A DNA stretch of 39,278 nucleotides, taken from positions 1 to 39,278 of the IMG/VR virus record IMGVR_UViG_3300009515_000257; one strand, written 5' to 3'. Numbering within the stretch: position 1 is the stretch's first letter; every line of letters starts with the position of its first letter. The notes beneath the pieces are model-generated. The model made no database searches. It was not told the origin of the DNA and saw only the letters and a list, made by a program, of their open reading frames with translations. Shown here piece after piece: positions 7,264 to 30,232 of this stretch. The stretch is from a virus. The translations under genes and the position numbers were made by a program.

Positions 7264-7486
7264 ATCACTGCAGCATTTTATGGATACGTACAAGGACTAT
7301 TCCCAGCTTGAACTGATCAAGGAGCTTAAGTCATTATCGGTGATGCTTGGGATTAAGACCCTTAGCGCCATGGACCTGGAGGAAGAGAATAAATTTTTAA
7401 AGGATTGTCTTATTAAACTGGCAATGGTCCACGATGAGGAAGAGAAACAGGCTATTGCCAATAGAATTTTGTTGAGGAAGGAATGA
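7250..7486 (+). CDS. Small helical hypothetical protein
   Basis: 78 residues, Leu/Glu/Lys-rich and probably coiled (LELIKELKSLSVMLGI ... DLEEENKFLKDCLIKLAMVHDEEEK). Ends in GAATGA, overlapping the helicase ATG by 4 nt. Coupling suggests it is made together with the helicase; a partner role is possible but unproven. Confidence 0.6.
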   Translation: MKPSESLQHFMDTYKDYSQLELIKELKSLSVMLGIKTLSAMDLEEENKFLKDCLIKLAMVHDEEEKQAIANRILLRKE

Positions 7487-9741
7487 AATATTTTTTAAAA
7501 CCATGGAAACACCAGCTAGAAGTAATAGAAAAAGCTGCTCTACTGCCGGGGTATGCTCTCTTTTGGGACATGGGCTGTTTAGGGAGAGACTCGATAATAT
7601 CAATTAATGCTAATGGTCGAGGTTTAAAATTAACAATAGAAGAACTTTACCGAAAATTTCACAGAGTAGAACTAGATCATAAAGAAAGAGGATTTAAGGG
7701 TAGCATTAGAGTTAGGAGCCTAAAAGAAGATCATACTGTTGGGCTAAATAGAATTCTAGATGTCTATAGGTCTGGAGAGAAAGAGGTTTATGAGCTTAAA
7801 GTTAAAAACCACACCCGCCTTAAGGTTACAGCTGAGCATAAGATTTTTACCAAACGCGGCTGGGTAGAAGCGCAGGATTTAAAAAAGAGCGATATGATAG
7901 CTTGTGATGATTTAACTAGGCACCAGAAAAAAGCTAAAAGAAAGGCAGTAAAAAAACCAAAGTATAATTTGGTAACAGTTGGGGCTTATCATCCATACGC
8001 GCATACTACAACGGTTCACGGAAATAAAAGAAAAAGGATTGAGAAGCATAGGGCAATTTATGAGATGCACCTTAATAAACTACCCGATCTAGAAGTATAT
8101 CAAGAATATACTGCCTCCCCTTCTTTAGCAGCAAGCTTAAATTTTGTTGATCCTTGCGAGTGGCACATTCACCACAAGGATCATAACCACAAAAACAATG
8201 ACATAAAAAATCTCCAAAAGATTTCTCCCAACGATCATTTTAAGCTACATGGTAATTATGACAACTTTGGGCACGGAAAAATAAAATGGCGGAGCTTTGA
8301 GTCGTTAACTTATGTCGGTGAAGAGATGACCTATGATATCTGCGCCGAATCTCCTTACAATAGTTTTGTGGCCAATGGTCTAGTAGTACATAATACCGGC
8401 AAGACGGCTACGGCTATCAACATCCTACGCCATAAGTATTTTCAAGTAGGCAGCATCCTTAAAACATTAGTGCTTTGCCCACCTGTGGTTAGAGAAAACT
8501 GGAAAAGAGAATTTAAGATGCACGCGGCTGAAGGTGTTTATAAACAGTGTCACGTCTTAGATGGGCCAGGCACCAAGCGCATAAAAAAATTTAAAGACCT
8601 GGGGTTTTGGCAAGATGCCCCAGATCAAACTAAGAGCAGGATCTTTATAACTAATTATGAATCACTGCAGATGAAAGAGCTGTTCCAGCTTTTGAAACAG
8701 TGGCAACCGGAGGTAATAGTAGCCGATGAATCCCAACGACTTAAGAACTTTAAAGCAAAAAGAACAAAGCTTGCGATCGAACTGGCGGATAAGGCCAAGT
8801 ATAAATACATTTTATCAGGGACTCCTATACTTAATACTCCTATGGATATATGGGCTCAGTTCCGTTTTCTTGACAGTGGCGCGAGCTTTGATAAAAATTT
8901 CTTTGCCTTTAGAGCGAAGTTTTTTATCGACCGCAATGCGGGAATGCCAAAGCAAAAATACTTCCCGAACTGGCAGCCCATCCCAGATCTCTCAGCCCGG
9001 TTCAATGCCAAAATTTACCGAAAAGCAAGCCGAGTTCTTAAAAAAGACTGCCTTGATCTCCCGCCCATCGTCCGCAAAAGATTCGAGATTGAAATGGGTG
9101 GGGAGCAAGCGTCCATGTATAAGCAAATGGCAAAATCCTACGTAGCCTATTTAAATGATAAAGCTTGCGTAGCGTCCATTGCGCTGACCAGGGGGCTAAG
9201 GCTCCAGCAGATTGCCAGCGGTTTTTTTATGGACGACGAGGAGAAAGAAAACCAGTTCGATAAGAATCCACGGATGGACCTGCTAAAAGAATTGGTGGAG
9301 GAGCTGACCAGGAACCACAAGGTTATCATTTGGTCTAGTTTTAAAAACAATCACCACCAGATTAGTCGGATGCTAGATACCATCGACCAAAAGGAGCATT
9401 GCATATTGATCGGTGGGATGACAGACAAAGCCCGTCAGCAGTCGATCGATGACTTTCAAACAGATGATACCTATAGAGTCATGGTTGCAAACCAACAAGC
9501 CGGTGGCGTTGGGGTTAACCTGACGGCGGCGGACTATATGATTTACTACAGTCGGAACTTCAGCCTAGAAGCTGACCTGCAGTCGGAAGCCCGCTGCCAC
9601 CGTGGCGGGAGCGAGATCCACCAGTCCATCACAAGAATAGACCTGGTGGCGAAAGATAGTATCGATGAGATTATACTCGATGCACTGGCGCGCAAAGAGA
9701 ACCTTGCGAATAATATTCTTAAGCTTAGGGAGTTGTTATGA
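7483..9741 (+). CDS. SNF2-family DEAD/DEAH helicase containing an intein
   Basis: 752 codons, of which 273 are intein. After splicing the host protein is ~479 residues, normal for a phage SNF2-like helicase. The extein begins MKYFLKPWKHQLEVIEKA (Q-motif region). Walker A (DMG-TGKTATA) is split after Gly31. Walker B is VIVADESQ (Asp at ~415), motif III SGTP (~446), and the C-terminal helicase domain has GGVGVNLTAADYMIYY and the arginine motif SEARCHRGG (~700). It would act as a DNA translocase in replication, recombination or transcription control. It is active only after splicing, since the intein separates the ATP-binding loop. ATG start with GAGGAAGGA upstream. It ends in ATGA with the next gene. 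Confidence 0.92.
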   Translation: MKYFLKPWKHQLEVIEKAALLPGYALFWDMGCLGRDSIISINANGRGLKLTIEELYRKFHRVELDHKERGFKGSIRVRSLKEDHTVGLNRILDVYRSGEKEVYELKVKNHTRLKVTAEHKIFTKRGWVEAQDLKKSDMIACDDLTRHQKKAKRKAVKKPKYNLVTVGAYHPYAHTTTVHGNKRKRIEKHRAIYEMHLNKLPDLEVYQEYTASPSLAASLNFVDPCEWHIHHKDHNHKNNDIKNLQKISPNDHFKLHGNYDNFGHGKIKWRSFESLTYVGEEMTYDICAESPYNSFVANGLVVHNTGKTATAINILRHKYFQVGSILKTLVLCPPVVRENWKREFKMHAAEGVYKQCHVLDGPGTKRIKKFKDLGFWQDAPDQTKSRIFITNYESLQMKELFQLLKQWQPEVIVADESQRLKNFKAKRTKLAIELADKAKYKYILSGTPILNTPMDIWAQFRFLDSGASFDKNFFAFRAKFFIDRNAGMPKQKYFPNWQPIPDLSARFNAKIYRKASRVLKKDCLDLPPIVRKRFEIEMGGEQASMYKQMAKSYVAYLNDKACVASIALTRGLRLQQIASGFFMDDEEKENQFDKNPRMDLLKELVEELTRNHKVIIWSSFKNNHHQISRMLDTIDQKEHCILIGGMTDKARQQSIDDFQTDDTYRVMVANQQAGGVGVNLTAADYMIYYSRNFSLEADLQSEARCHRGGSEIHQSITRIDLVAKDSIDEIILDALARKENLANNILKLRELL
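7576..8394 (+). mobile_element. HNH-type intein inserted in Walker A of the SNF2 helicase
   Basis: Residues 32-304 of the open frame. The first residue is Cys (CLGRDSIISIN, block A). Block B is KVTAEHKIFTKRGW with the TxxH histidine. An HNH nuclease lies at about residues 183-260 (RAIYEMHLNKLP ... HIHHKDHNHKNNDIKNL). Block F/G is YDICAESPYNSFVANGLVVHN, ending in His-Asn. The +1 extein residue is Thr305. All catalytic positions for splicing (Cys1, block B His, penultimate His, terminal Asn, +1 Thr) are present, so splicing should work. The insertion site, within DMG/TGKT, is a classical conserved target. Confidence 0.93.
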
Positions 9742-18190: not shown

Positions 18191-18283
18191 GCAAAAAATA
18201 GAAATACACCCTGGCGTAACCTACCTTAACTACCCGAGAAAAAATAAAGTTAAAGTTTTTTCAAAAAATGCCGATAAAGACTC

Positions 18284-18312
18284 TTGACTTTCGGTAATAC
18301 CTAAAGTAGTAT
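18284..18312 (+). promoter_or_regulatory. Promoter P4 with GGTAATACC operator
   Basis: TTGACT (18284-18289), 17-bp spacer, TAGTAT (18307-18312). The spacer contains GGTAATACCTAAAG, whose GGTA-A-TACC is a short palindrome. The same -35 and spacer recur at 18537-18565 with one change. It lies 42 bp before the 18354 start. Confidence 0.65.
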
Positions 18313-18353: not shown

Positions 18354-18527
18354 ATGATCAAGTTCACTAAGACTCTCGAAGAAAACACTGAAGTCAGAAT
18401 TGTAGAATTAAACAACGGCAAATTTTCTGTTGTTGTCCACGATTATGATGCTGGCACCAATTTTCCAATGGCCACTATCTTTTCTGATTACTCTAAAGCC
18501 TTGGCATATGTTGAGGCAAATAGCTAA
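18354..18527 (+). CDS. Small hypothetical protein
   Basis: 57 residues, MIKFTKTLEENTEVRIVELNNG; beta-rich, acidic, no recognised family. The ATG at 18354 has AGGGATAAG upstream; an earlier in-frame ATG at 18312 lies inside the promoter and is rejected. It has its own promoter (P4) and is followed by P5, so it is a monocistronic unit. Confidence 0.65.
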   Translation: MIKFTKTLEENTEVRIVELNNGKFSVVVHDYDAGTNFPMATIFSDYSKALAYVEANS

Positions 18528-18536
18528 AATTTTTTC

Positions 18537-18565
18537 TTGACTTTTGGTAATACCTAAAGTATCTT
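18537..18565 (+). promoter_or_regulatory. Promoter P5, twin of P4
   Basis: TTGACT (18537-18542), 17-bp spacer TTTGGTAATACCTAAAG, TATCTT (18560-18565). Identity with P4 over TTGACTTT-GGTAATACCTAAAGTA implies shared control. It would start transcription about 4 bp before the hairpin at 18576-18591. Confidence 0.65.
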
Positions 18566-18618: not shown

Positions 18619-19428
18619 ATGAGAAACACAGCACTTTCAAACGAGATCATCCAACGAGTAGCACCAAGCGTATTCGCTGACGCACCTGCGCAAACCACTT
18701 CCGACAAGTATCGATTTATCCCCACTATCGAAGTTGTGGACATTATGCGCCAGTCAGGCTGGGAGCCCGTGGCAGCTTTTGAATCACGTACCCGTAAAGA
18801 AGAGCGCCAGGGTTTTCAAAAGCACATGCTTCGTTTTCGCCAGGCTAAAGATATCGGCAGGCTCTTGAGCGTGGATGAAATAATCATGGAGCAGGTTCTT
18901 ATCAATGCTCACGATGGCTCTAGCAGCTTCCAATGGTCTTCAGGCTTTTTCCGCTGCTTTTGTGACAATCAGTGTACTACAAAAATCGGCAACGCTGAGG
19001 AGATGCGCGTTCGCCACGTTGGTTATGATGCGGACAATGTGATCGATATTACTGAGCGAGTAGCTACTGAGTTGCTCCCCGCCCAAGCCGAAAGCATCAA
19101 TGAGATGCAGCAGATCAAGCTAACGGACAGAGAACAGCTGGTGCTAGCCTCTGCCGCTATCCCCCTTCGTTGGGATACCGAGAAAAAATCAGCTCCTATC
19201 GAGCCTGTTCAGTTGCTTAGATCCCGCCGCTGGGATGATCGAAAAGATGATTTATTTACTACCTACAATCGGATACAAGAAAATATGATCCGTGGTGGCT
19301 TGGCTGGAAGGGATGCGAATAACCGTCGCCGCCGTACCAGGGGAGTTAACTCGGTAACCGAAGATGTTAGGTTGAACAAAGCTCTCTGGACGCTAGCAGA
19401 GCAAATGAAAGAATTAAAGAATGGCTAA
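18619..19428 (+). CDS. DUF932 phage/plasmid-like protein
   Basis: 269 residues. Matches the DUF932/TIGR03299 type of plasmid- and phage-borne proteins: FIPTIEVVDIMRQSGWEPV near the N-terminus, KHMLRFRQ ... EIIMEQVLINAHDGSSSFQWSSGFFRCFCDNQ in the middle, and a Lys/Arg-rich C-terminal part (NNRRRRTRGVNSVTEDVRLNKALW). The biochemical role is unknown; it is often near recombination or anti-host genes. Own promoter P5; AAGGAACTAAAATT precedes the ATG. Overlaps the next gene by 8 nt. Confidence 0.85.
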   Translation: MRNTALSNEIIQRVAPSVFADAPAQTTSDKYRFIPTIEVVDIMRQSGWEPVAAFESRTRKEERQGFQKHMLRFRQAKDIGRLLSVDEIIMEQVLINAHDGSSSFQWSSGFFRCFCDNQCTTKIGNAEEMRVRHVGYDADNVIDITERVATELLPAQAESINEMQQIKLTDREQLVLASAAIPLRWDTEKKSAPIEPVQLLRSRRWDDRKDDLFTTYNRIQENMIRGGLAGRDANNRRRRTRGVNSVTEDVRLNKALWTLAEQMKELKNG

Positions 19429-19648: not shown

Positions 19649-19910
19649 AACCCTGCCGAATACCTGGGCCACTAAAATCCAGCAAGTATCGATAGGCGGT
19701 ACCCCTGATATCATAGCCTGTATCAGGGGTTACTTCGTTGCTATTGAACTAAAGCGGAACAAAAAAGAAAAGCCAACAGGTCTTCAAGAATACAACATGG
19801 TGAGAATCCTAAAAGCCGATGGCCAGGTTTTTGTAGTCTACCCAGAAAACTGGGCTAAGATTTTTCGCCACCTCGAGCGGCTATCACTTTATGGAAACAT
19901 TGAAGACTAA
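19602..19910 (+). CDS. VRR-NUC domain nuclease
   Basis: 102 residues, a minimal VRR-NUC (PD-(D/E)xK) nuclease: GGTPDIIACIRGYFVAIELKRNKKEKPTGLQ carries the catalytic Asp, Glu-Leu-Lys and Gln. Proteins of this size are common in phages, where a stand-alone VRR-NUC cuts flap or junction DNA. GTG start at 19602, inside the preceding gene. Last gene of the plus block; its 3' end overlaps the PDZ gene, which comes from the other strand, by 27 nt. Confidence 0.85.
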   Translation: MQSETRLKEKVLSDLKTLPNTWATKIQQVSIGGTPDIIACIRGYFVAIELKRNKKEKPTGLQEYNMVRILKADGQVFVVYPENWAKIFRHLERLSLYGNIED

Positions 19911-20279
19911 TTTTTTGCCGCGTCTAATCAGTGTAAAACTTACCTCATCTTGGTACCGAGCCCACTTGAGCATGTGAACGGCTACCGCTGGCGAGTCGAG
20001 CTGAATATCATCAACATGGGTTATAACGTCACCCTCTTTGATACCCACCACATGGAAGATAGATCTTTCGGTGAAGTCGAACAGCTCCCACCCTATGATC
20101 GTCCCGTCCTCGTCCCTGACCGCTTCTGATTGTGCTTGCATCAGGATCTCCACCAGCCCCTCATTTAAAGCATGGTAGTAGGCCATATCATCGATGGTTA
20201 TTTTCTGACCAGTTCGGTCAACTTTGTAGTCCGCATATGCAACACTGGTGAAAAACAAAAAAATCAGTAAACCCTTCAT
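19884..20279 (-). CDS. Secreted PDZ-domain protein resembling the GspC C-terminus
   Basis: 131 residues with a signal peptide (MKGLLIFLFFTSVAYA-DYK). The mature part ends in a PDZ fold like that of type II secretion GspC proteins: SIFHVVGIKEGDVITHVDDIQLDSPAVAVHMLKWARYQDEVSFTLIRRGKK. The ATG at 20279 is chosen because AAGGAGGAAGC precedes it and the signal peptide starts there. It overlaps the amidase stop (ATGA), so the two are co-translated. No transmembrane or protease domain accompanies the PDZ. It could modulate host secretion or envelope assembly, or help lysis; unproven. Confidence 0.65.
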   Translation of the reverse strand: MKGLLIFLFFTSVAYADYKVDRTGQKITIDDMAYYHALNEGLVEILMQAQSEAVRDEDGTIIGWELFDFTERSIFHVVGIKEGDVITHVDDIQLDSPAVAVHMLKWARYQDEVSFTLIRRGKKLVFNVSIK

Positions 20280-20872
20280 GCTTCCTCCTTGCACGTTTGC
20301 CTAAGTTCTTCCATGGTAAAGCTGGTAATCCCCCCGGGGTCTACTTTGCGCCCCGGTGGTATGCAGCATTCATCGTGTCCGCAGATACCCTTGGAGGGGA
20401 TGCCCCTTTTTACCAGCCATTTACACAATTTTATCAGGGATTCCTCTTGGGGTTCAGTAGCCTTGTCCCACAAGGCTCCACCCTGCCGCCGCCAATCTGC
20501 CCCGTGGACCTGTCCCCCGGTCCAGTTCTTCCCATCCTCATCCAGGAGCCCCCATGAGAGTAGCGCAATGGATATATGAGAGCGGTTTGGGCTCCGGTTC
20601 TGCCAAGATGCCTTCCCAGCATGGTGGACTCTATGGGTCAATTTAGCAGTCTGTACGATCATCCCATCCCGCTCTATGATAAAATGATAGTTTAGCCCCC
20701 GAATCATCAAGGTTTCATGGGTAGCCTCGAGCGACCTGCTTGCTGTATAATGGACTGTTATCCCTGAGGGATCTCTCTTTGCAAAGTATCCGACCAAATT
20801 GCTGGAAGGTGATAGCATCATACCAGCGTAGGGATAGAACTCCGGCAGCTTAGCTATTTTGTACTTAGCCAT
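20276..20872 (-). CDS. N-acetylmuramoyl-L-alanine amidase (Amidase_2), endolysin
   Basis: 198 residues. Amidase_2/T7-lysozyme-like fold: ITVHYTASRSLEATHE (first zinc His, ~40), NYHFIIERDGMIVQTAKLTHRVHHAGKASW (second His region), SHISIALLSWG, and GHDECCIPPGRKVDPG with the final His/Cys ligand set. It cleaves the amide bond between MurNAc and L-Ala to lyse the cell at the end of infection. No signal peptide, so it needs a holin or another route. The ATG at 20872 has GAGGAAAT upstream; the ORF reaches 20926 but nothing supports the longer form. Confidence 0.9.
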   Translation of the reverse strand: MAKYKIAKLPEFYPYAGMMLSPSSNLVGYFAKRDPSGITVHYTASRSLEATHETLMIRGLNYHFIIERDGMIVQTAKLTHRVHHAGKASWQNRSPNRSHISIALLSWGLLDEDGKNWTGGQVHGADWRRQGGALWDKATEPQEESLIKLCKWLVKRGIPSKGICGHDECCIPPGRKVDPGGITSFTMEELRQTCKEEA

Positions 20873-20935
20873 TAATTTCCTCAATTTTCTACCGATAGAA
20901 ATAATGAATGACTTCTCCCCAAGCATTTTTCTGAA

Positions 20936-20995
20936 GAGGGGCTGGCGTCACCGTCCTATCGACGCTACAGGTCACGTTAAACGGCGCAGCCCCTC
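20936..20995 (-). ncRNA. Candidate compact structured RNA upstream of endolysin gene
   Basis: In the 151-bp gap before the amidase start, GAGGGGCTG (20936-20944) pairs perfectly with CAGCCCCTC (20987-20995). Inside, GCGTC (20945-20949)/GACGC (20961-20965) form a hairpin. Its loop (ACGG on the minus strand) can pair with CCGT of the single-stranded part next to the outer helix, which would make a pseudoknot. A closed 9-bp helix around a hairpin and a possible pseudoknot is riboswitch- or ribozyme-like. It would lie in the late transcript, 64 bp before the endolysin ATG. I do not recognise the class. Confidence 0.45.
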
Positions 20996-21023
20996 AAGCT
21001 CCCAGATAGAAAGCTCTCTTACA

Positions 21024-21197
21024 TTATACATTTAATCGCAGGTATTTTTTACGTTCGCGGGCTTTTTGGATAGTCTGTGTAGCCTTAGCCAGTTCCGCTA
21101 ATTGCTCGGCTTGGGAGCACTTTTTATGCTCCCTTAGGTATTTTATAAATTCTCTAGCGAGTGCCAAAGCTGCTAAAATTACCTTCGCCCAGGTCAT
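21024..21197 (-). CDS. Small protein with amphipathic N-terminus
   Basis: 57 residues, MTWAKVILAALALAREFIKY then Lys/Arg/Gln-rich helix (ATQTIQKARERKKYLRL). ATG overlaps the preceding stop (ATGA). Position in the lysis region and the N-terminal hydrophobic segment allow a spanin- or antiholin-like role, but no family motif is seen. Confidence 0.55.
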   Translation of the reverse strand: MTWAKVILAALALAREFIKYLREHKKCSQAEQLAELAKATQTIQKARERKKYLRLNV

Positions 21198-21493
21198 TTC
21201 TTTTTGTCCATGGTTGCCATGAGAGCGTTAACGCCTTTTATCAGGTTAGCTCCCCCAGCAATAAAAGCCTCAACCACTTGGGTCATTTCTTCCTTGGATA
21301 GCTCTTTCATCTCTAGCTTAGCCATTGGCGTACCGTCAGCAGCATCTTTAGCAGCCTGCAGAAGAGGTGGGATATGTCGAAGGTCCCAAAGGTCAATGTT
21401 ACCGTCTTCGGCTACTTTTGAAAGTTGCTCGCCAGCTGTATTTAGCGCTTTCGCGTAGTCCATGAGTTCTTTTGTTCCATACTGTCCAGCCAT
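21194..21493 (-). CDS. Hypothetical lysis-region protein
   Basis: 99 residues, helical, Ala/Lys-rich (ELMDYAKALNTAGEQLSKV ... EEMTQVVEAFIAGGANLIKGVNALMATM). A weakly hydrophobic stretch near the C-terminus (VEAFIAGGANLIKGVNALMA) is too polar for a clear membrane helix. Start has GGAGATTATT upstream. Coupled to the 57-residue gene by ATGA. No family recognised. Confidence 0.6.
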   Translation of the reverse strand: MAGQYGTKELMDYAKALNTAGEQLSKVAEDGNIDLWDLRHIPPLLQAAKDAADGTPMAKLEMKELSKEEMTQVVEAFIAGGANLIKGVNALMATMDKKK

Positions 21494-21502
21494 AATAATC
21501 TC

Positions 21503-21919
21503 CTAATTGTTTGCAGCCACCAATTGCTTGATGGCGGTTATCTCCCGGTCCATGATATCGAACCGGTGTTTTGTTCCGGTTGTTTCTTCGTCAAAATCAT
21601 GGGAAAGGTTTTCAATTTGCTTGGCCATGATGGCAACTTCTTTCCCCTGATCTATTACATCGGACCTGATATTAAGCACTTCGCCTATCCTGGTCTTTAC
21701 AACTTCCGTATCGGTTTTTAGGTCGGAAAGTTTATCAGAAAGCGCCCGGTGGGATTTATACTGTCTATCCGCTACCTTCTGGATGGCTTCCATGGCTAAT
21801 AAATGCTTGTTATCGTTCTCTCTTAGGAACCTGCCGATTAACAATTTGGCGATCCAGCCGACAAAACCGGCTCCGCCACTGGCCCCGATAACTGCAACTA
21901 GAATGTTAGTCCAGTCCAT
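21503..21919 (-). CDS. Membrane-anchored coiled-coil protein, possible holin-associated
   Basis: 138 residues. N-terminal hydrophobic segment (WTNILVAVIGASGGAGFVGWIAKLLIG, ~4-30) followed by a long charged coiled coil (KVADRQYKSHRALSDKLSDLK ... AIMAKQIENLSHDF). Layout resembles small phage lysis proteins that anchor by one helix and extend into periplasm or cytoplasm, such as XhlA-like proteins. ATG at 21919 (a GTG lies one codon upstream) overlaps the lipoprotein gene's 3' end. The function is inferred from context only. Confidence 0.55.
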   Translation of the reverse strand: MDWTNILVAVIGASGGAGFVGWIAKLLIGRFLRENDNKHLLAMEAIQKVADRQYKSHRALSDKLSDLKTDTEVVKTRIGEVLNIRSDVIDQGKEVAIMAKQIENLSHDFDEETTGTKHRFDIMDREITAIKQLVAANN

Positions 21920-22880
21920 CACGTAGCCACCCCAAAACTACCATTGAAGCGAAAAGAAAATCTGTCCCGTAGTGCTCCCTGCTATCTCCGGGACAGGGTA
22001 GCCAATCAGCCCCTGGGTCACGCTGCCAGAGGTACTCTGTACAGTGCTCCCCAGAACCTGGTAGCCTATCGGCTGGAAAGTGTAGTCCCCTTAATATTTC
22101 CCAAGCGTCGGTCATATCGCCACTGGTGAATAGAGCGTAACTAGCCTGGAACAGAGCGTTTGTTGTCACTCGGTCCTTTTGCCAGCGCAGCTGCGCCAGT
22201 TGGTTATCGTTTATCCCGCGTTGCACATGCCCCCTAAGCAGAATATGGAGCTGGGTTAGATGGGCAGTGAAGCCAGTATCATGGGGATTCCACACCTGGG
22301 GTATGGCGCGGGCCAGGTGACAGCGATCATTACAGTCATAGCCTAGTTTTACCGCTACCTCATAAACAGTAGCTTTTAGCGTAGGCTTTATGATGCACCT
22401 ACTAAGGCGGGTTTCTTCGCTATCATGCTCCCCCCCGCACATATCCCACCCGTGGTCTTCGCCGTACTTGATTAAATTCTCCGGTATATCTGGGCGCTGG
22501 TGTTGCCAGGCATATAAAAGCAGTCCAATAATCATATCGTTTGAGATACCAGACCTTGACTCCCCCTTAGCAAAACAATCATGGGTGGGGGAGCGCTTCC
22601 AGAGCCCAGGCTCCTTTTGAAATTCATCTATCGCAACATAAGAACAAGCAACACCATGCAAAGAAGTAAACAAAAGACCGTCACATTTAGAATGAACATA
22701 ACCTTGAGCACCGTACTTCTCCTTTGAAAGTGAGCAGTATAGGTTTAGCTTCTCCGCTACCATGGCCATGTCTGGCTTGACAGGCTCTTGTGGCTTGTTG
22801 TCCTTTTTTAAAGGATTTTCACATGCAAAAAAGGCTGCAAGGAGCAGCCAGAGAAAGGATATTTTTAGTGGAGTTTTCAT
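21906..22880 (-). CDS. Predicted lipoprotein of unknown function
   Basis: 324 residues. Signal peptide with lipobox-like ending: MKTPLKISFLWLLLAAFFAC-ENPL (Cys at 20), then a Lys/Pro-rich linker and a globular domain with eleven further Cys, many paired (YCSLSKEK, SKCDG, DMCGG, YDCNDRC). Repeated Trp/His motifs (LLLYAWQHQRPDIP; FTAHLTQLHILLRGHV) and C-terminal YLWQRDPGADWLPCPGDSREHYGTDFLFAS look helical and enzyme-like, but I cannot assign a family. It would be anchored in the inner or outer membrane after release from the phage genome. It lies in the exported-protein cassette between fibre genes and lysis genes. A tail-tip or superinfection-related role is possible. Confidence 0.6.
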   Translation of the reverse strand: MKTPLKISFLWLLLAAFFACENPLKKDNKPQEPVKPDMAMVAEKLNLYCSLSKEKYGAQGYVHSKCDGLLFTSLHGVACSYVAIDEFQKEPGLWKRSPTHDCFAKGESRSGISNDMIIGLLLYAWQHQRPDIPENLIKYGEDHGWDMCGGEHDSEETRLSRCIIKPTLKATVYEVAVKLGYDCNDRCHLARAIPQVWNPHDTGFTAHLTQLHILLRGHVQRGINDNQLAQLRWQKDRVTTNALFQASYALFTSGDMTDAWEILRGLHFPADRLPGSGEHCTEYLWQRDPGADWLPCPGDSREHYGTDFLFASMVVLGWLRDGLD

Positions 22881-23497
22881 TAGTCAAGTTCAACCATATA
22901 GAAAAAATCTACCACACCAGCTGCACTAGCACTTGGTGGATGAATAACACAAAAGGCTTCATTTGATGCCTGAAGACCACTGACTGTACCGCCCCTGGTT
23001 CTGTCTGTTTGTGTGGGTGCAGTAGAATTTCCAAATGTGCAAACACCCCTAAGGTCAGCATTGTTATCAAATGATCCAAATGGAATACTTATTTCCATCC
23101 TGTGGCGTTCTGCTTCATCTGGATTAACAGCATTGGTTGCATTACATGATCCAGTCACAGTTAAGTTTTTTCCAATCAAAGTCCAAAACCCTGAACCACC
23201 TGACACACCTGTCCAAAGTTCATTAGACTGACACGTTGGTGTATAGGAACCTGAACATACATTTCCAACAGCACAAGTAGAGGCGGATATTTCTGTTTCA
23301 ACGTTTAGCCCAACTGTGGCGTTGGCCCCATCAACTGTTAGCGCGGCTGTAGGAGTACCTCCGTCGTTAACCTCAAGGATTAAATCTTTGTCCTGTGCCC
23401 TGTTGGTAACAGTCTTATCTTGCTGGGCATAGGCTATGCCGACAATCGTACCAACTAGCAACAAAATGTAAAACGAGTATGGTAATAGTTTTTTCAT
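22880..23497 (-). CDS. Exported fibre-like protein
   Basis: 205 residues with a signal peptide (MKKLLPYSFYILLLVGTIVGIAYA-QQD). The start of the mature part, DLILEVNDGGTPTAALTVDGANATVGLN, is typical of phage appendage or fibre proteins with VDG-type repeats. The rest is beta-rich with four Cys that may form disulphides (CAVGNVCSGSYTPTC; CNATNAVN). Its ATG is next to the lipoprotein gene. Such a signal peptide on a fibre-like protein is unusual for a tail gene. Confidence 0.6.
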   Translation of the reverse strand: MKKLLPYSFYILLLVGTIVGIAYAQQDKTVTNRAQDKDLILEVNDGGTPTAALTVDGANATVGLNVETEISASTCAVGNVCSGSYTPTCQSNELWTGVSGGSGFWTLIGKNLTVTGSCNATNAVNPDEAERHRMEISIPFGSFDNNADLRGVCTFGNSTAPTQTDRTRGGTVSGLQASNEAFCVIHPPSASAAGVVDFFYMVELD

Positions 23498-23505
23498 GGT
23501 AGCTC

Positions 23506-23691
23506 CTACCTAAGCCTGATTAATCTAAGATAACTTCTCTGTGCTCCCGCCAAAATAGTTCTAGATGACCCATCTGTAGCAAATTCTACATGGATATCAT
23601 CCCCGACCATTTTCATGGTTGAGTTTTGTGAATAAGCATAGGCACCAACCAACATGGCCACGACTGCTATGGATAGGAATAGTTTTTTCAT
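23506..23691 (-). CDS. Small exported protein
   Basis: 61 residues: signal peptide MKKLFLSIAVVAMLVGAYAYS then a short mature part (QNSTMKMVGDDIHVEFATDGSSR ... SYLRLIRL). Part of the exported cassette; GGAGTTAAA upstream. No family recognised. Confidence 0.6.
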   Translation of the reverse strand: MKKLFLSIAVVAMLVGAYAYSQNSTMKMVGDDIHVEFATDGSSRTILAGAQRSYLRLIRLR

Positions 23692-23700
23692 TTTAACTCC

Positions 23701-25248
23701 TTAATCAGCTATCTTTATAGCGATCATTGTTACGGGTGCCCAGGCATCATCCCAAGCCTTATTAGAGGCAGCACCAGTTGAGTTTCTGACTTCTAACTGC
23801 ATTACTTCAGAACCACCACTGGCAGTGTAAGTAAACCACTGGAGTATGTTATAAATACCGCCTTCGTTGTTCTGTTGAAAGCCCTCACTATTAGTTAGTA
23901 GAACATCAGATTCTGTGACTCTTGTGTTTATATTACCGTTCGATGGTTTCTGAAATGGGGCGCTATAGTGAATAAGCCATGTCCCAGAAGACGTGAGCGT
24001 CAAAGAATGAAGGTCTACCCAAGCACCAGCGTTGTAATTAACATCAGTTGCTGTTCTGTGTTCTGTTATAACGTTGAATATATTTGCAGGGTCTGTTGTG
24101 AATGTTCCTGACACTGTTACATCATTACTAAATGTCTTATCACCACTAAAGGTCTGTGCAGTCTGACACATCAGACCATCTTCACTAGCAGCTGCGCAGC
24201 GAATGGCTGTCCCACCAGGCGTCATGCTAGCGATGATCTGTACGTTATGGGTTCCGTCTATTGTCAAGGAGCTGAGGTCACAGTTGATCTGTGTCTGTGT
24301 CGCAGAGCAAAGGTCTGTTCGCTTATCCCATTCCCCCGCGGTCGATTGCCCTTCGGTCCAAACAGCAAGCTCCAACGGTCTGTCGGGTAGTCCATGATTA
24401 AGTGGGAACGAAGGAGCTGCTGAAAGCTCACCACTATTGTAAGTTCTTGTGGAAATTACTTGGGCAGAAAAGCCCATATCTTGCAAGAAAACAGTGACGG
24501 TATCTGATCCAGCCAAACCAGTAAAATCGTAGTCTATATCATTTACTGTTGTGTCAGTTATAAAGTCCGACCCAGAAAGCTGAGTTTTAACAGAGCCATC
24601 ATCTAGGATTGCATACCAATATTGATTGTCTATAGGAACATTAAGATTGTGCGCAATAGTACCCGTGGTACCCCCAAATCCTGTGACGGTGTTGGTAGCG
24701 GTAAAGACTGTGGGGTTGATATTTACAGATATAGGCTGAATGCCCATGTAGACATCGTCCAAGTATACAATGGCAGCGTCTGCAGAGGATAGAAGCCTAA
24801 ACCCTACTGTCCCAGACGTTGGGCAAGTATAGCCAATAGTATCATGTGTCCAGTCGGCTACTGCCGATAAAGTCCTAGTGGCTAAAACACTAGAACCATC
24901 CCAAACTTGAGCTGCTATGTTGGCGTCCCCACCCTTCCACATAAAGGAAGCGGTACAGAGCCGAGTTCCCTGGCCGTTATTAATGGCCACTTGGGAACTA
25001 GCCAAGGACTCGGCACCAGCGGAAGCATCCCAACTACCGCTGCGAGATCCAAGCCCCAGGTTTGCTCCCGAAGTGACTGTTGAAAATACGCTAGACCCAT
25101 CGGCGGTCCACCGTGATTCTCCATTTTCAAACCCCCCATTTTCCATGAGGTTGGTATTGGGCACATCCTGAGCATCTAGCCCACCAATGATCCCCCCAAA
25201 TGCAGGACTAGCCAGAAAGGCTATTATGATAAAGATTATAAATTGCAT
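23701..25248 (-). CDS. Large exported fibre-like protein with CBM-like and C1q-like ends
   Basis: 515 residues. Signal peptide MQFIIFIIIAFLASPAFG-GI. Next comes a carbohydrate-binding-module-like jelly roll (MENGGFENGESRWTADGS ... AIVYLDDVYMG, ~35-170). Then fibre-type beta regions, a QTFSGDKTFSNDVTVSGTF motif (~370-390) that is common in phage tail fibres, and a C-terminal TNF/C1q-like domain (HRTATDVNYNAGAWVDL ... AWAPVTMIAIKIAD). The layout is that of a receptor- or glycan-binding fibre, but the N-terminal signal peptide would send it out of the host cell, away from virion assembly. It overlaps or abuts both neighbours, so it is part of the late operon. Confidence 0.7.
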   Translation of the reverse strand: MQFIIFIIIAFLASPAFGGIIGGLDAQDVPNTNLMENGGFENGESRWTADGSSVFSTVTSGANLGLGSRSGSWDASAGAESLASSQVAINNGQGTRLCTASFMWKGGDANIAAQVWDGSSVLATRTLSAVADWTHDTIGYTCPTSGTVGFRLLSSADAAIVYLDDVYMGIQPISVNINPTVFTATNTVTGFGGTTGTIAHNLNVPIDNQYWYAILDDGSVKTQLSGSDFITDTTVNDIDYDFTGLAGSDTVTVFLQDMGFSAQVISTRTYNSGELSAAPSFPLNHGLPDRPLELAVWTEGQSTAGEWDKRTDLCSATQTQINCDLSSLTIDGTHNVQIIASMTPGGTAIRCAAASEDGLMCQTAQTFSGDKTFSNDVTVSGTFTTDPANIFNVITEHRTATDVNYNAGAWVDLHSLTLTSSGTWLIHYSAPFQKPSNGNINTRVTESDVLLTNSEGFQQNNEGGIYNILQWFTYTASGGSEVMQLEVRNSTGAASNKAWDDAWAPVTMIAIKIAD

Positions 25249-26102
25249 TAGAAACTTACCTCCGTTGCATTTGGAACAAAGCGGATGTCCGCTGTGTCTG
25301 TATCTGTACCCCGTAAAAGCTCAACTTTAAGCAAGTCCCCAGCTTCAGCGTCTACGCCGTTTATCTGCCCTGACCCATCGGTCAAATCTAAACTTTCTGA
25401 AATAAATTTGTTAGCTGGGGCTGTATTGGTCACCGCAGTATTAGTGCTACTGTGCTGATTTGTTGTGGAATCTATGCCATCCGTCCCGGTTCTGATTAAT
25501 GTAGTTGTGGCACTTAGAAGGATGGTATTCGATGTTGACGGACTATACAAACCAATGTTCATGGTTATTTGGTTCGATGCTACGTGGCCAGCCGGTATTT
25601 TGATGAACGCTACCAGCTTGTTGGCAAGGCCAGACTCGTAAAGATAGACCTTCTCGCCATTCTCCTCCCCCTGTACCGGGGATATACCACTGGGCTCATT
25701 CCAGGTGAGCGATCCCCCACCTCCTCCAGCGCCCGCGCCACCCCCATGGATGACCACCAGGGCAATATCTTTGGGGCCACCGCTGTTATTGGTGACCGTA
25801 ATCTGTCTTTTTAGGTCCCCAGCCTTCCCCGTGATGGAAAAGCCAGAGGTCAGCTGGCCAATCAGTTCACCCGTCCCAGTATTTCTCTCATAAAGGATGG
25901 TGGTCAGATCATCAAAGTCTACATAGAAATTATGATCAAAATCCACACTAGCTGTGTTCGCTAGGGCATCTTCAGTGAAAAACCTGGAGTTTGCATTGTC
26001 TCCAACCTTAGTCCACAAGGCTTCAACAGAGGTATGCAGAGCTGCTCCACCCGTGGTTGCCAGCGTTGGGTGATCTAATTTGGACCGTGATACTTCAACC
26101 AT
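25248..26102 (-). CDS. Tail fibre/tip protein
   Basis: 284 residues, no signal peptide. Beta-rich structural style: VDFDHNFYVDFDDLTTILYERN, a collagen-like Gly-rich linker (GGGAGAGGGGGS at ~125), ANKLVAFIKIPAGHVASNQITMNIG and a Thr/Asn-rich C-terminus (TSTNTAVTNTAPANKF). Overlaps the exported fibre gene by one base, so it is in the same late operon. Probably a distal tail or fibre part; exact role unknown. Confidence 0.6.
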   Translation of the reverse strand: MVEVSRSKLDHPTLATTGGAALHTSVEALWTKVGDNANSRFFTEDALANTASVDFDHNFYVDFDDLTTILYERNTGTGELIGQLTSGFSITGKAGDLKRQITVTNNSGGPKDIALVVIHGGGAGAGGGGGSLTWNEPSGISPVQGEENGEKVYLYESGLANKLVAFIKIPAGHVASNQITMNIGLYSPSTSNTILLSATTTLIRTGTDGIDSTTNQHSSTNTAVTNTAPANKFISESLDLTDGSGQINGVDAEAGDLLKVELLRGTDTDTADIRFVPNATEVSF

Positions 26103-26114
26103 TTTTAAAGCCCC

Positions 26115-26534
26115 CTACTTGCCATAAGTAGCTAAGTTCATATTCTTGTCACTTTCGGTCAATTCCTTCACCAGGATCTCACCTGTATTATAAACTTGGA
26201 TACGTTTGTTCCTTGTCCACATCTCTAATCCCACAAGTTGAGTAAAAGGCACAACAGAACCATGAATGAAACCACCGCCAATCCGACCCGCTGCGAGCCA
26301 GGCAAAGTTTCTAAAGTCCTCTCCGATGCAATCCACCAATACTCTAACCTGTTTTGTATCAAGATCTTTAGCCTCAATCTTTACTCGGCTTGGGTTGTTG
26401 TTTTTGTTCCAAGCCTGATCCACTGGGTTATTAGTTGTCTTGCTCCACATCCCTTTGGCGCTCGGTTTGTCGTGGTAGTCAAACCGCCAGCGCAGTACAT
26501 ATCTAGCCTCTTTTGGTTTAAAGGGGCTACGCAT
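26115..26534 (-). CDS. Hypothetical late protein
   Basis: 139 residues. MRSPFKPKEARYVLRWRFDYHDKP ... GFIHGSVVPFTQLVGLEMW; beta-rich, Trp-containing, basic. No family recognised. It lies between the fibre genes and the GIY-YIG gene, overlapping the latter by 8 nt; it is probably a tail-tip component. Confidence 0.55.
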   Translation of the reverse strand: MRSPFKPKEARYVLRWRFDYHDKPSAKGMWSKTTNNPVDQAWNKNNNPSRVKIEAKDLDTKQVRVLVDCIGEDFRNFAWLAAGRIGGGFIHGSVVPFTQLVGLEMWTRNKRIQVYNTGEILVKELTESDKNMNLATYGK

Positions 26535-27441
26535 ATTGGAACCTCATTTTTTTATGAGTTTTCCGTCTGCCTACACAACAAGCCTGAATATGCTTCGCAT
26601 TTGCGCCTAGAGCCTCGGCGGCTTCTTTAGCGCACCTATATTTAACTCCAGAGTCAATACAGATTACAGACTTGGCTTTACTAGTCGTTCTTTTGCCGCC
26701 GCTATTTATGCGCCAAGTCTCCACCCTTCTCTTTTGTTCTTCTGGAGTCAAGGCTCGTCTACCCATAGTTGCTTTGCTAATGGCTTCCTTATGCTCTTCC
26801 GGCATAACTCTGCCCAGTAAACCATTAGGTTTGCCCTTTTTTCCTGCCGATATAGCTAATTTATGCTCTGTAGTTTTCGGCCTGCCCCTAAGTGCAGCTG
26901 CTCTTTTCTCTACGATTTCTGGAGTCGGTTTCCTTCCGCGCATTTGATTAGCACGTTTTTCTATGGCTTCGGGAGTCATAGAGGCAGCAGTCATTTTTTT
27001 AATTAACTCTGGGTCACGTTTTTTACCGAGCCAATATTTAGCAAAAGAATCGTTTTTAGTTTTAGTGGCGAGCATTCTATCAATAGTATCTTTAGATCTT
27101 TTCGTGCCGAACAAAGGATGTTTATGCCCAGATCTCATTGAGCTTAATATATCTCTAGATCTTTGATCCCATGCGCCTTCTATTCCGCCCCTAGCCACAT
27201 TAGCTAGAGCACATCCATCCTCTATTGCTTTGCTGATCCATACTTGTTCCCTGTTGTATGCTTCCAACTCGGTTAAATTCTTTTCTAAAAACTTAACGCG
27301 GGGATTTCGATGCGGGAATACTTCCAGCCATCTTTTGCTCCTTTGGCAAAATGTGGTCGCTCTATTCATACGTCCTTTGCCGATATAGCGAATCTCACCC
27401 CGATTGTCTAAATGCGCATACACGTAAAAATCATCTTTCAT
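26527..27441 (-). CDS. GIY-YIG homing endonuclease with NUMOD repeats
   Basis: 304 residues. N-terminal GIY-YIG nuclease (FYVYAHLDNRGEIRYIGKG; catalytic region LTELEAYNREQVW). Then four or five NUMOD3-like basic helices (SKDTIDRMLATK; TPEAIEKRANQMRGRK; TPEIVEKRAAALRGR; TTEHKLAISAGKKGK; PEEHKEAISKATMGR), and an IENR1/NUMOD1-like C-terminal DNA-recognition domain (SVICIDSGVKYRCAKEAAEALGANAKHIQAC). This is the standard build of a phage homing endonuclease that cuts a related genome lacking the gene. It interrupts the late tail operon. Its Shine-Dalgarno is inside a perfect hairpin, so translation is likely held down. Confidence 0.9.
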   Translation of the reverse strand: MKDDFYVYAHLDNRGEIRYIGKGRMNRATTFCQRSKRWLEVFPHRNPRVKFLEKNLTELEAYNREQVWISKAIEDGCALANVARGGIEGAWDQRSRDILSSMRSGHKHPLFGTKRSKDTIDRMLATKTKNDSFAKYWLGKKRDPELIKKMTAASMTPEAIEKRANQMRGRKPTPEIVEKRAAALRGRPKTTEHKLAISAGKKGKPNGLLGRVMPEEHKEAISKATMGRRALTPEEQKRRVETWRINSGGKRTTSKAKSVICIDSGVKYRCAKEAAEALGANAKHIQACCVGRRKTHKKMRFQYA

Positions 27442-27476: not shown

Positions 27477-28274
27477 TTACAGCATAGGAGCAGCTACCTC
27501 AACAAGTTTCAGAAAAGGTGAAATAAAACAGGCGGCTAGAGCAGCCGTAAACGAATATGCCGCCACCCACTCCCATTGAACTATCCCACCATTTGTGAAG
27601 CTGCCTAAAAGTTGGATACGAAGGCCAATGTGAGCATTGTCCCCTAGCGCAGTATCACCATCCTTACCAATTTTCCCAAGCTCAGGAGCGGTTGGAATAT
27701 ATCCGTTTGTCCCATCACCGCCTTGACTCTGATCACTATCAATGACCATGGCATCCGCCGCCATATCAATGGCATTGGCCAGGTCCGAGCCCGCTCCGTT
27801 GGTGGTACCACCACCCCTTCCGTAAATTTCTACTGTATCGTTGCCGGCTTTTGGAATGCCGTTTGTTGCAAAATCGAACTGGTTGATCGTGGTAACGTCG
27901 GTGTCCATGTCGATCCAAAGACCGCCCGATAGATCATCAGCATTGTTCTTAGACTCACCGGAGTTATCCCCAAGGGTATCCAGCATTGTCACAATGTCGT
28001 TGGCTGCGCTATCAGCGCCCCCATACGTAAATCCGGTTCCCACCCCAAAAGTCTGGATAAATGTTTTCACATCTGTAATGGGATCGATAGTTGCATCGTG
28101 GCGAATCCAAATATCCTGCCGCCCAGAGTTATCTGCTGGACCGCCGCCGCCGATTGGGGCATAGCTGCCGTTTACCACCGAGCCCAGGTCTACCCCTGTG
28201 CCACCACCTGCGAGTGAATCACTGGCTGCAGCACCATCAAGGGCCACGTCAGAAACTGTTAGTAAAACTGCCAT
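27477..28274 (-). CDS. Phage structural protein, Asp/Gly-rich
   Basis: 265 residues, MAVLLTVSDVALDGAAASDSL ..., acidic and Gly/Asp/Asn-rich (SYAPIGGGGPADNSGRQDIWI; DADDLSGGL-like stretches). Hydrophobic C-terminal stretch (WEWVAAYSFTAALAACFISPFLKLV). It lies in the tail-tip region directly after the hub-like gene, so it is likely a tail or tip protein. No family name can be given. The GIY-YIG gene follows immediately and could have altered its 3' end. Confidence 0.55.
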   Translation of the reverse strand: MAVLLTVSDVALDGAAASDSLAGGGTGVDLGSVVNGSYAPIGGGGPADNSGRQDIWIRHDATIDPITDVKTFIQTFGVGTGFTYGGADSAANDIVTMLDTLGDNSGESKNNADDLSGGLWIDMDTDVTTINQFDFATNGIPKAGNDTVEIYGRGGGTTNGAGSDLANAIDMAADAMVIDSDQSQGGDGTNGYIPTAPELGKIGKDGDTALGDNAHIGLRIQLLGSFTNGGIVQWEWVAAYSFTAALAACFISPFLKLVEVAAPML

Positions 28275-28279
28275 TTTAT

Positions 28280-30232
28280 TTACTCCTCAACTATGGTGGC
28301 TGTTGAGCCCCCAGTGATACCTTCAAAACCCGGTGAATGCCCAGGGAATGGAAGCATTTGAAAGCTCCATAGCCGCATGGGTATTTTTAACCCCTTGGGA
28401 TCATAGCCAATCTGCCTAATTATAGCTGGCACATTTTCAAACACTGTACCTTGTATATTTACATTTAGTTTAACAAAATCGCCCACATCTAGCAGCATAG
28501 AACGCCAGGTCAATTCTACGTGGACATTCTCAATATAACCAGTGGTAATCCTTAGAATTTCCTTTACCTGGTCCTCTACCGTGGCTTCTGTGTATAAGTT
28601 GGGGAAAACAGGTCTTTTCGAGATTTCCTTTCCAGCCTGATCGATAGCAGCCTGGTTTATAAAAACCTTAGTCTCCTGAAAGTCCTCGTTGCGGTTAGGC
28701 AGAAAGTTGAAAGTCCCCTTGGCTCGGTTGAAGTTGTTGCGCTCATCAAGTTGTGGTCTAAAACTATTTTTCACAACATCCCAATTCCTGAGTTCAAACG
28801 TGGGGGAAGCCACAAAGTCATCCAAATGGTTGGATAGGATCTCAAGCTTCAAATCCCTATTGAGAAAAACCTCAAGCCTAACCTGCTCAAACAGTGAAAG
28901 GATATAATCTAGCGCCTCCTGAGGCTCCTGTATCCATATCCTTGATAGAAAAGTGCTTATGGCAGACTCAGAAGGACTCGCCTTATCCCTAAATGTATCC
29001 CAATTTGAGGAAAAATCACCGCTTACAGCATCGGTATAAGTTAGCAGGATATCCCGAGCCTGCTCAATGATGTTATCGTCATAAGTCGTCAGGTCTTTAC
29101 CTTTAACTTTGACCAAAAACTCATCGCCGCTGCTATACTCAAACAGTTGATCGGTGGCTTCCGCTGTTACTGCTGTCATAGTTAGCGAATTTTGCTTAAT
29201 TTCAAAAGAATTTAGCCCACCCGCCACGTTGGTTATATCGCCAGAGGCAAACCGCCAGGCATCATCACCGCGCCGAAGGTAGACCTCGGTGGTATCAAAC
29301 ACTGTATTGTCGTTGTCGCTGATAACCACCTGCACATTGGTAACGTGGGAGGTATCCCCGTTCACCGTAGCATCCGCCCCATTGACTGGAATGCCTGGGA
29401 CCGAGGCTAAATTGGGCTCCACGTTGGTTGTCCAGTCACCATAGATGATTGGCACAATGACATTGATCTTGTCTTGCTCGAGATTTGGAAAGCCGCTGGT
29501 GGTAAAGGCAGTTTTTGGAAAGGTGGCGTTAAGGCTGTCGAATCTGTCCCTTGCCAGGAACTGAATGCTCTTGATGGTCCGCTTAAACCCACCCACTTCT
29601 GTTATCTTGCCGTCAAAAATAGTCTTATAGGTTGCTAGTACATCCCGAAGACCAAGCTTGATAGTGACCTCGTTGCCGATCCAGCCTGCAAAATCATCAC
29701 CGGCTGGTAGGAAGTTGTTGAAAAACCCATCCGCGTTGTTCAGCTCTATGTTGATACTACTAAACTCGAGCTGCGGGCTTAGAAATTCCCCTACGGTACG
29801 TGTGATAACCGGAAATACCAGCCGGGCTTCGTAAAATACCCCGCCCACATACTTGTTTCGGTCAGATACGTTTATCTGACGATCTGCTTGCACGTCTAAA
29901 GTACCGGTGGCAGGTGAAACCGCAGAGCCTTTATCAAACCGGAACCGGCTATCGCCACCCACTTCTGTTATGGTCTGTACACCATCCAGACCGGAGTCTG
30001 TAGCGTTGGCGATTGTCACAGTTTGGCCAATTTTGAGCCCGTGGTTTGTTAGAGTAACCTCTACTATATTACCAGTTGGGTTAGTATAGCCTTGACCGGT
30101 TTCATTCAGCTCTGGAGCCTCGATTTCAACGATTAGCTCCAGATTGTTGACCAAGTTATCATGGGATTCATCCAAAAAATCCTGGTCTAAAACCGTTTCA
30201 GTCAAGTAAGGTTTTCGGTCATCGCTGGCCAT
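28280..30232 (-). CDS. Baseplate/tail-hub protein
   Basis: 650 residues. Beta-rich protein with hub-like segments: FSSINIELNNADGFFNNFLPAGDDFAGWIGNEVTIKLG (~175-215), RQINVSDRNKYVGG, and a C-terminal part with DVGDFVKLNVNIQGTVFENVPAIIRQIGYDPKGLKIPMRLW. Position after tape measure and distal tail protein fits the central tail hub (gp27/gpJ-like function) that connects the tube to tip and fibres. ATG overlaps the neighbouring gene by one base. No signal peptide. The family assignment rests on size, position and style. Confidence 0.6.
   Translation of the reverse strand: MASDDRKPYLTETVLDQDFLDESHDNLVNNLELIVEIEAPELNETGQGYTNPTGNIVEVTLTNHGLKIGQTVTIANATDSGLDGVQTITEVGGDSRFRFDKGSAVSPATGTLDVQADRQINVSDRNKYVGGVFYEARLVFPVITRTVGEFLSPQLEFSSINIELNNADGFFNNFLPAGDDFAGWIGNEVTIKLGLRDVLATYKTIFDGKITEVGGFKRTIKSIQFLARDRFDSLNATFPKTAFTTSGFPNLEQDKINVIVPIIYGDWTTNVEPNLASVPGIPVNGADATVNGDTSHVTNVQVVISDNDNTVFDTTEVYLRRGDDAWRFASGDITNVAGGLNSFEIKQNSLTMTAVTAEATDQLFEYSSGDEFLVKVKGKDLTTYDDNIIEQARDILLTYTDAVSGDFSSNWDTFRDKASPSESAISTFLSRIWIQEPQEALDYILSLFEQVRLEVFLNRDLKLEILSNHLDDFVASPTFELRNWDVVKNSFRPQLDERNNFNRAKGTFNFLPNRNEDFQETKVFINQAAIDQAGKEISKRPVFPNLYTEATVEDQVKEILRITTGYIENVHVELTWRSMLLDVGDFVKLNVNIQGTVFENVPAIIRQIGYDPKGLKIPMRLWSFQMLPFPGHSPGFEGITGGSTATIVEE

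Follow-up and report, generated by a model that had tools for sequence, protein, structure and literature searches.

A putative receptor-interaction block made for export in the tail operon of an uncultured siphophage

Why would a tailed phage place export signals on proteins encoded between its tail genes and its lysis genes? This question is raised by the window studied here, the whole of the 39,278-base uncultured virus record IMGVR_UViG_3300009515_000257. The minus-strand half of the window is a siphophage tail operon with genes for a minor tail protein and a tape measure protein of 2027 amino acids (aa; phrog_1272, E 1e-21). Several tail genes then lead up to the region of interest, which the lysis genes follow. 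The region of interest encodes three proteins with predicted signal peptides (P0001, P0002 and P0003) and a predicted lipoprotein (P0004), and a further signal-peptide protein, P0005, is encoded at the lysis genes. A sequence-only reading of this DNA had taken these five proteins for a secreted toolkit apart from the structural proteins. We found instead that the exported-looking proteins occupy the place of receptor-binding fibres in the tail operon, and the best overall explanation, which we hold tentatively and at somewhat less than an even chance, is a receptor-interaction block of this operon that is made for export.

Predicted export signals in the fibre slot

All five open reading frames claimed earlier were confirmed on the minus strand at the coordinates given, and their starts are convincing. 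The description of four successive genes with a signal peptide or lipobox, together with a fifth gene for a PDZ protein, fitted their N-termini when one fixed home-made heuristic was applied. P0001 (515 aa; 23701..25248, minus strand) has a Sec signal peptide with predicted cleavage at about residue 18 and six cysteines in its mature part; its start and the stop of the gene before it overlap as ATGA, and a ribosome-binding site of 6 bases serves this start. P0002 (61 aa; 23506..23691, minus strand), also with a site of 6 bases, may be a fibre stub that lacks a tip, and no homologue of it was found. P0003 (205 aa; 22880..23497, minus strand), with a site of 5 bases, carries a short 'NRAQDKDLILEVNDGG' head, a variable tip and six mature cysteines, and its stop is overlapped by the start of the 324-aa P0004 (21906..22880, minus strand). 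The N-termini are MQFIIFIIIAFLASPAFG in P0001, MKKLFLSIAVVAMLVGAYAYSQ in P0002, MKKLLPYSFYILLLVGTIVGIAYAQ in P0003, MKTPLKISFLWLLLAAFFAC with the lipobox in P0004 and MKGLLIFLFFTSVAYA in P0005, and they show hydrophobic cores together with -3/-1 sites or a lipobox.

By the same rule, four of the five cassette genes of the window look exported, compared with one of 41 elsewhere, which is the PDZ gene. Among eight related phages the figures were 15/23 cassette genes and 8/291 others (Fisher P = 1e-14), where gene order defined the boundaries of the cassette, though these were drawn after the data had been viewed, and the genes are not independent. The mature signal-peptide proteins contained 0.74 cysteines per 100 aa vs 0.25 in comparison proteins, an enrichment that is suggestive rather than decisive (pooled P = 1e-4). 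Based on these signals, the cassette proteins are very probably exported. Dual translation, in which internal starts led by a Shine-Dalgarno sequence would yield signal-free fibre isoforms, was unsupported because such starts were absent from P0001, P0002, P0003 and L006 and weak elsewhere.

Used as single-protein queries, P0001, P0003 and P0004 found no relatives in viral contigs. Relatives were reached via the neighbouring 650-aa hub/baseplate-like tail protein (28280..30232, minus strand), which was chosen as the marker of the phage group and has relatives of 45-69% identity in nine uncultured phage contigs, and then via alignments of the lipoprotein and of a 284-aa fibre adaptor, which led to 24 and 27 viral loci, respectively, some contigs being common to both. 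The order hub, a protein of about 235 aa, one of about 135 aa, adaptor, signal-peptide fibres and/or lipoprotein, and lysis genes recurred in these uncultured relatives, so that the gene order that the sequence-only reading had proposed to look for in other phages does exist there.

Comparison with the sister phage G001 shows that evolution is fast in the cassette, where heads are conserved and tips are swapped as in receptor-binding fibres. The tail-end genes ahead of it are 58-79% identical over 92-100% of their length (34% for the tape measure), vs merely 28-43% over 24-73% for the cassette. The domain that follows the signal peptide of P0001 is 39-42% identical to a 973-aa signal-peptide protein of the sister phage (locus L002), and the tips of the two are unrelated. 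Likewise, the signal peptide and head of P0003 are kept in signal-peptide proteins of L002 (43%, E 2e-8) and L073 (35%, E 4e-9), whose tips differ. Among the relatives, L002 and L007 add Laminin_G_3 lectin domains, and the fibre-lipoprotein cassette of L008 includes an exported glycoside hydrolase family 5 (GH5) protein (L008:6216-8129; Pfam Cellulase, E 8e-15). The N-terminus of P0001 had been likened to a carbohydrate-binding module, which is weak but plausible: residues 24-168 are 27% identical to Klebsiella phage tail proteins (E 3e-3), and a module of an S-layer-associated endoglucanase was matched at E 0.11. The C1q-like C-terminus proposed for the same protein was found by neither Pfam nor PDB sequence search, and this label is not supported.

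The adaptor itself (25248..26102, minus strand) has no signal peptide, and its first part is a conserved domain ('LDHP..GG..LH') about 120 residues long. This domain starts at the initial methionine in the window, L002, L008, L010, L025, L028, L043 and most other loci, and it stands directly behind a signal peptide in L004, L006, L007 and L061. The L061 adaptor reads MRKILSFLLTLLLIPVAQG-VEVSRLKLDHPALG and that of the window M-VEVSRSKLDHPTLA; L061 from residue 20 onward aligns to the window protein from residue 2 onward (44% over 124 residues), which places the signal peptide exactly before the second residue of the window adaptor. L004 and L007 have no adaptor protein other than the exported adaptor-fibre, and therefore the receptor-binding fibre itself bears the signal peptide there. 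Because the adaptor domain occurs with and without a signal peptide, the heads are conserved and the tips are swapped, we assign the exported proteins to the receptor-binding-fibre type, and P0001-P0003 are probably receptor-binding-type adhesins.

A parallel was seen in the capsid region. A 406-aa protein of G004 (L020:15243-16463) has a signal-peptide-like N-terminus and eight mature cysteines, and its G001 homologue (29%, E 2e-31) has no signal peptide and no cysteine. The adaptor and capsid-region cases argue that structural-type proteins in this phage group may gain working signal peptides. A signal-peptide-like N-terminus was also observed on a capsid-region protein of another related phage (L022:6323-7309).

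A lipoprotein family beside receptor-binding genes

P0004 adjoins the receptor-binding genes and has the lipobox FFAC20. Its family, with 24 homologous viral loci and lengths of about 285-350 aa, had no match in Pfam, PHROGs or PDB sequences, and on sequence grounds P0004 heads a previously undescribed family. In the alignment, the lipid-site Cys20 is present in 21/21 members, and Y48, D67, R96, S108, S113, D115, H207 and Y283 are invariant among them. Cys66 and Cys102 are lost jointly in L009, as are Cys280 and Cys296 in L008, and Cys75 and Cys79 mostly covary; such paired loss would be expected if an exported protein formed disulphides. An AlphaFold2 model built from 21 sequences is almost entirely helical, with a predicted local distance difference test score (pLDDT) of 81 and a predicted template modelling score (pTM) of 0.79; an earlier fold from four sequences was poor (pLDDT 45). 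The top PDB matches of the model are toroid-type proteins, including GH88 (the best, E 0.13), a polysaccharide lyase (PL), GH9 and transcobalamin, with template modelling (TM) scores of about 0.3. Only one structural neighbour was strong, namely an uncharacterized protein encoded by an uncultured phage.

In nearly all loci, the lipoprotein gene lies directly behind the last fibre-type gene and ahead of lysis or further tail genes, with L026 as a clear exception; several of these neighbours were called fibre-like from sequence features, without a PHROG match. L025, L028 and L043 encode a fused adaptor-fibre without a signal peptide, followed by the lipoprotein directly or one gene later. Because these loci pair signal-free fibres with the lipoprotein, the lipoprotein is separable from signal peptides on fibres, and it is a far more widespread element beside receptor-binding genes than the signal-peptide fibres. 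It is fixed in this place in two dozen or more uncultured phages, and none was found in the isolates or bacterial genomes searched. Among phage isolates, the window DNA, the hub, the 265-aa tail-operon protein, the adaptor, P0003 and the lipoprotein were all without match, and the hub and lipoprotein alignments had no match in 84,980 bacterial and archaeal species genomes; with neither the group marker nor the lipoprotein family detected in those genomes, a lysogenic lifestyle is not indicated. We speculated that members of this family may block the receptor or destroy it enzymatically, which would make the family a widespread, unannotated element of that kind.

Studies have shown that Llp, Cor and Rtp45 are superinfection-exclusion lipoproteins. 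The Llp gene of phage T5 is 'adjacent and downstream to pb5' (PMC9586334), and others than Llp have been reported downstream of the gpJ tail-tip locus (PMC9586334, PMC12685063). Rtp45 is a protein of about 6 kDa that has a disulphide (PMC9586334, PMC12685063). Like Llp, P0004 is a phage lipoprotein that adjoins and follows receptor-binding genes, and by analogy it would most likely work as T5 Llp does for FhuA. However, Llp, Cor and Rtp45 are small (below about 100 aa), which the members of the P0004 family are not, and this family extends to phages with another type of tail genes. P0004 was not filed among these proteins because its size and sequence differ.

Several further lipoproteins were noticed. 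The G001 homologue of P0004 looks split by a frame change near 18656-18672 (L002:18070-18672 and 18656-18892), through an assembly error, decay or a frameshift. A second, unrelated lipoprotein of 242 aa without a Pfam match lies directly behind the G001 CHAP endolysin gene (L002:19823-20551), at the position held by the PDZ protein in the window. G005 encodes a lipoprotein with collagen-like Gly-X-Y repeats (L021:8313-9143; Pfam Collagen, below the cut-off), and G007 a small lipoprotein with a HELAH motif (L023:10197-10622; PhageMetallopep, E 9e-6) outside the tail region.

Possible mechanism and rival explanations

In the explanation that we prefer, the 515-aa and 205-aa proteins (and the 61-aa protein) would be receptor-binding-type fibres translated as Sec precursors, which would fold and gain disulphides in the periplasm and most likely unite with finished tails upon cell lysis, and the surplus of unattached fibres would coat receptors. 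The 324-aa lipoprotein would be anchored in the host envelope, where it would most likely block or degrade the same receptor, so that neither progeny nor sister phages re-adsorb to the dying cell or its debris. This suggests that the phage may work on its own receptor from within the cell that is being killed. The cytoplasm is assumed to be where the fibres of tailed phages fold. For the late joining we point to P22 tailspikes and T4 long tail fibres, both of which can attach to particles outside cells. The sequences themselves show the predicted signal peptides, the lipobox, the conserved gene order, the adaptor with and without a signal peptide, the mosaic tips, the paired lipoprotein cysteines and the adjacency of the genes, and from these we infer that the signal peptides would function in the host, that the fibres would arrive on virions and that the lipoprotein would act on the receptor. 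In our judgement, the arrival of the fibres on virions is evenly balanced, and we lean slightly towards an action of the lipoprotein against the receptor. The complete course of Sec export, periplasmic disulphide maturation, mounting on virions only at lysis, and destruction or blocking of the receptor by the lipoprotein so that fresh virions are not lost is doubtful as a whole.

Several points weigh against this explanation. The export calls come from a heuristic rather than from SignalP, and a rank test of cysteine content per protein was not significant (P = 0.066). P0004, with about 300 mature residues, a helical fold and invariant polar residues, is far larger than Llp and Rtp45 and has no detected sequence link to them, and none of its PDB fold matches reaches significance. 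In most of the phages that encode this lipoprotein the fibres lack signal peptides, and therefore fibres and lipoprotein are not one obligate system. We know of no described tailed phage that loads fibres from the periplasm.

The literature searches found no paper that describes this arrangement, in agreement with the earlier statement that no system of this make-up is known, and found no precedent for virion tail fibres bearing signal peptides. The nearest architecture is that of the mosaic adhesive trimer (MAT) fibres of Bdellovibrio, which are exported, modular, phage-fibre-like adhesins with interchangeable tips (PMC10769870). These are encoded by bacterial genes, have a conserved domain of about 130 aa after the signal peptide and in part carry S74 domains (PMC10769870). 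The likeness, which is a comparison by description, lies in the signal peptide on a fibre-like protein, whereas the window genes stand in a phage tail operon, and, unlike the S74 subgroup of MATs, neither P0001 nor its relatives had a Pfam match to S74. The parallel prompted a conjecture that the host might belong to the Bdellovibrionota. Ordinary siphophage tail fibres share the tail-operon position behind the hub genes, the conserved head with a variable tip, and the LamG and tail-fibre-like tips seen in relatives, but here Sec signal peptides are present and are gained or lost on the same domain among sister phages. A phage group in which fibres repeatedly carry signal peptides while sister forms do not offers a natural experiment: can parts of a virion mature outside the cytoplasm and be joined to it when the cell lyses? 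Loading of virions from the periplasm, if true, would be a plausible path to something categorically new.

The exported fibres might never become parts of the virion and might instead, once released, cover the infected cell, block receptors or serve as decoys, with the signal-free 284-aa adaptor as the separate fibre of the virion. The window, L002, L008 and others do have a signal-free adaptor with the exported proteins as separate following genes, and the lysis-stage position beside a lipoprotein would suit such a role. However, L004, L006, L007 and L061 export the adaptor itself with no signal-free adaptor fibre in view, and the exported proteins keep their heads and swap their tips in the manner of virion receptor-binding proteins, so we consider this reading rather unlikely. 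The hydrophobic N-terminal segments could also be helices associated with the membrane or the virion, for membrane assembly or DNA entry, instead of working signal peptides. The heuristic nature of the prediction and the lack of a basic residue in the n-region of P0001 are in line with this. It is nevertheless very unlikely, since many unrelated proteins encoded at this position have canonical -3/-1 sites and lipoboxes, cysteines are paired, and a signal peptide has been added exactly to a signal-free homologue. As a further alternative, these could be host-benefit or conversion genes whose fibres are displayed on the host cell for its adhesion, like the MAT adhesins of Bdellovibrio; we regard this as highly improbable, as the genes lie within a late tail-lysis operon and the group marker and lipoprotein family are missing from the species genomes searched.

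For P0004 itself, the alternative to a stoichiometric blocker is an envelope-anchored (alpha/alpha) toroid hydrolase or lyase that destroys a polysaccharide receptor or capsule from within. The model suggests for P0004 the helical fold class of GH88, GH9 and PL toroids, which are its weak top matches; the family has conserved acidic, His, Tyr and Arg residues (invariant D67, R96, D115, H207 and Y283), and the L008 cassette has its exported GH5 enzyme. On the other side, the fold matches are non-significant, non-enzyme toroids such as transcobalamin score alike, and P0004 has neither a sequence match to these enzymes nor any assignment to a sequence family. We believe that such an enzyme is unlikely. 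The glycan degradation that the sequence-only reading had put forward is only hinted at, by the GH5 protein and the loose toroid glycosidase/lyase likeness of the lipoprotein fold. Among these readings we keep to the receptor-interaction block.

The lysis module and other features of the window

P0005 (131 aa; 19884..20279, minus strand) has a predicted signal peptide ending in SVAYA, and its gene begins within the end of the amidase gene. The C-terminal PDZ domain reported earlier is real (Pfam PDZ_2, 30.6 bits vs a cut-off of 27), but its label 'GspC-like' is not specific, since in the PDB a DegP-like PDZ domain (E 0.0038) beats GspC (E 0.035). No homologue of P0005 was found in 16 related records. 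We treat it as a putative exported accessory of the lysis module, outside the fibre block. The amidase is an endolysin of the N-acetylmuramoyl-L-alanine type (20276..20926, minus strand; Pfam Amidase_2, E 3e-19; PHROG endolysin). A 139-aa holin-like protein (21503..21922, minus strand) with a hydrophobic N-terminus by the heuristic marks the lysis boundary, and transmembrane proteins lie at the equivalent place in relatives.

Between the hub and the adaptor are encoded the 265-aa protein (27477..28274, minus strand) and a tail-operon protein of 139 aa (26115..26534, minus strand), which are 79% and 62% identical, respectively, to their counterparts in G001 and keep their positions in relatives. 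These two conserved tail genes are separated in the window by a homing endonuclease gene (26527-27441, minus strand; NUMOD3, HNH-type) that G001 does not have.

DNA polymerase, helicase and nuclease genes are on the plus strand, and a primase gene is on the minus strand. No capsid gene was recognised among the window genes, so the window is probably a fragment; searches for tRNA and Rfam RNA in it found neither. The N-terminal part of the SNF2-type helicase (7483-9741, plus strand; SNF2 at 298-561) is split by an intein (Pfam Intein_splicing 47-304, E 7e-15) that contains an HNH endonuclease (PHROG, 224-266). The G001 helicase is 62% identical to this helicase over 99% of the length and runs into the same intein start. 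Finally, a 27-nucleotide repeat, TCTTGACTTTCGGTAATACCTAAAGTA, with a TTGAC-like box occurs at 18282-18308, 18535-18561 and 3940-3966. The first two copies are near-identical and flank a short open reading frame (18354-18527), the third is 74% identical, and the repeat is a possible phage promoter.

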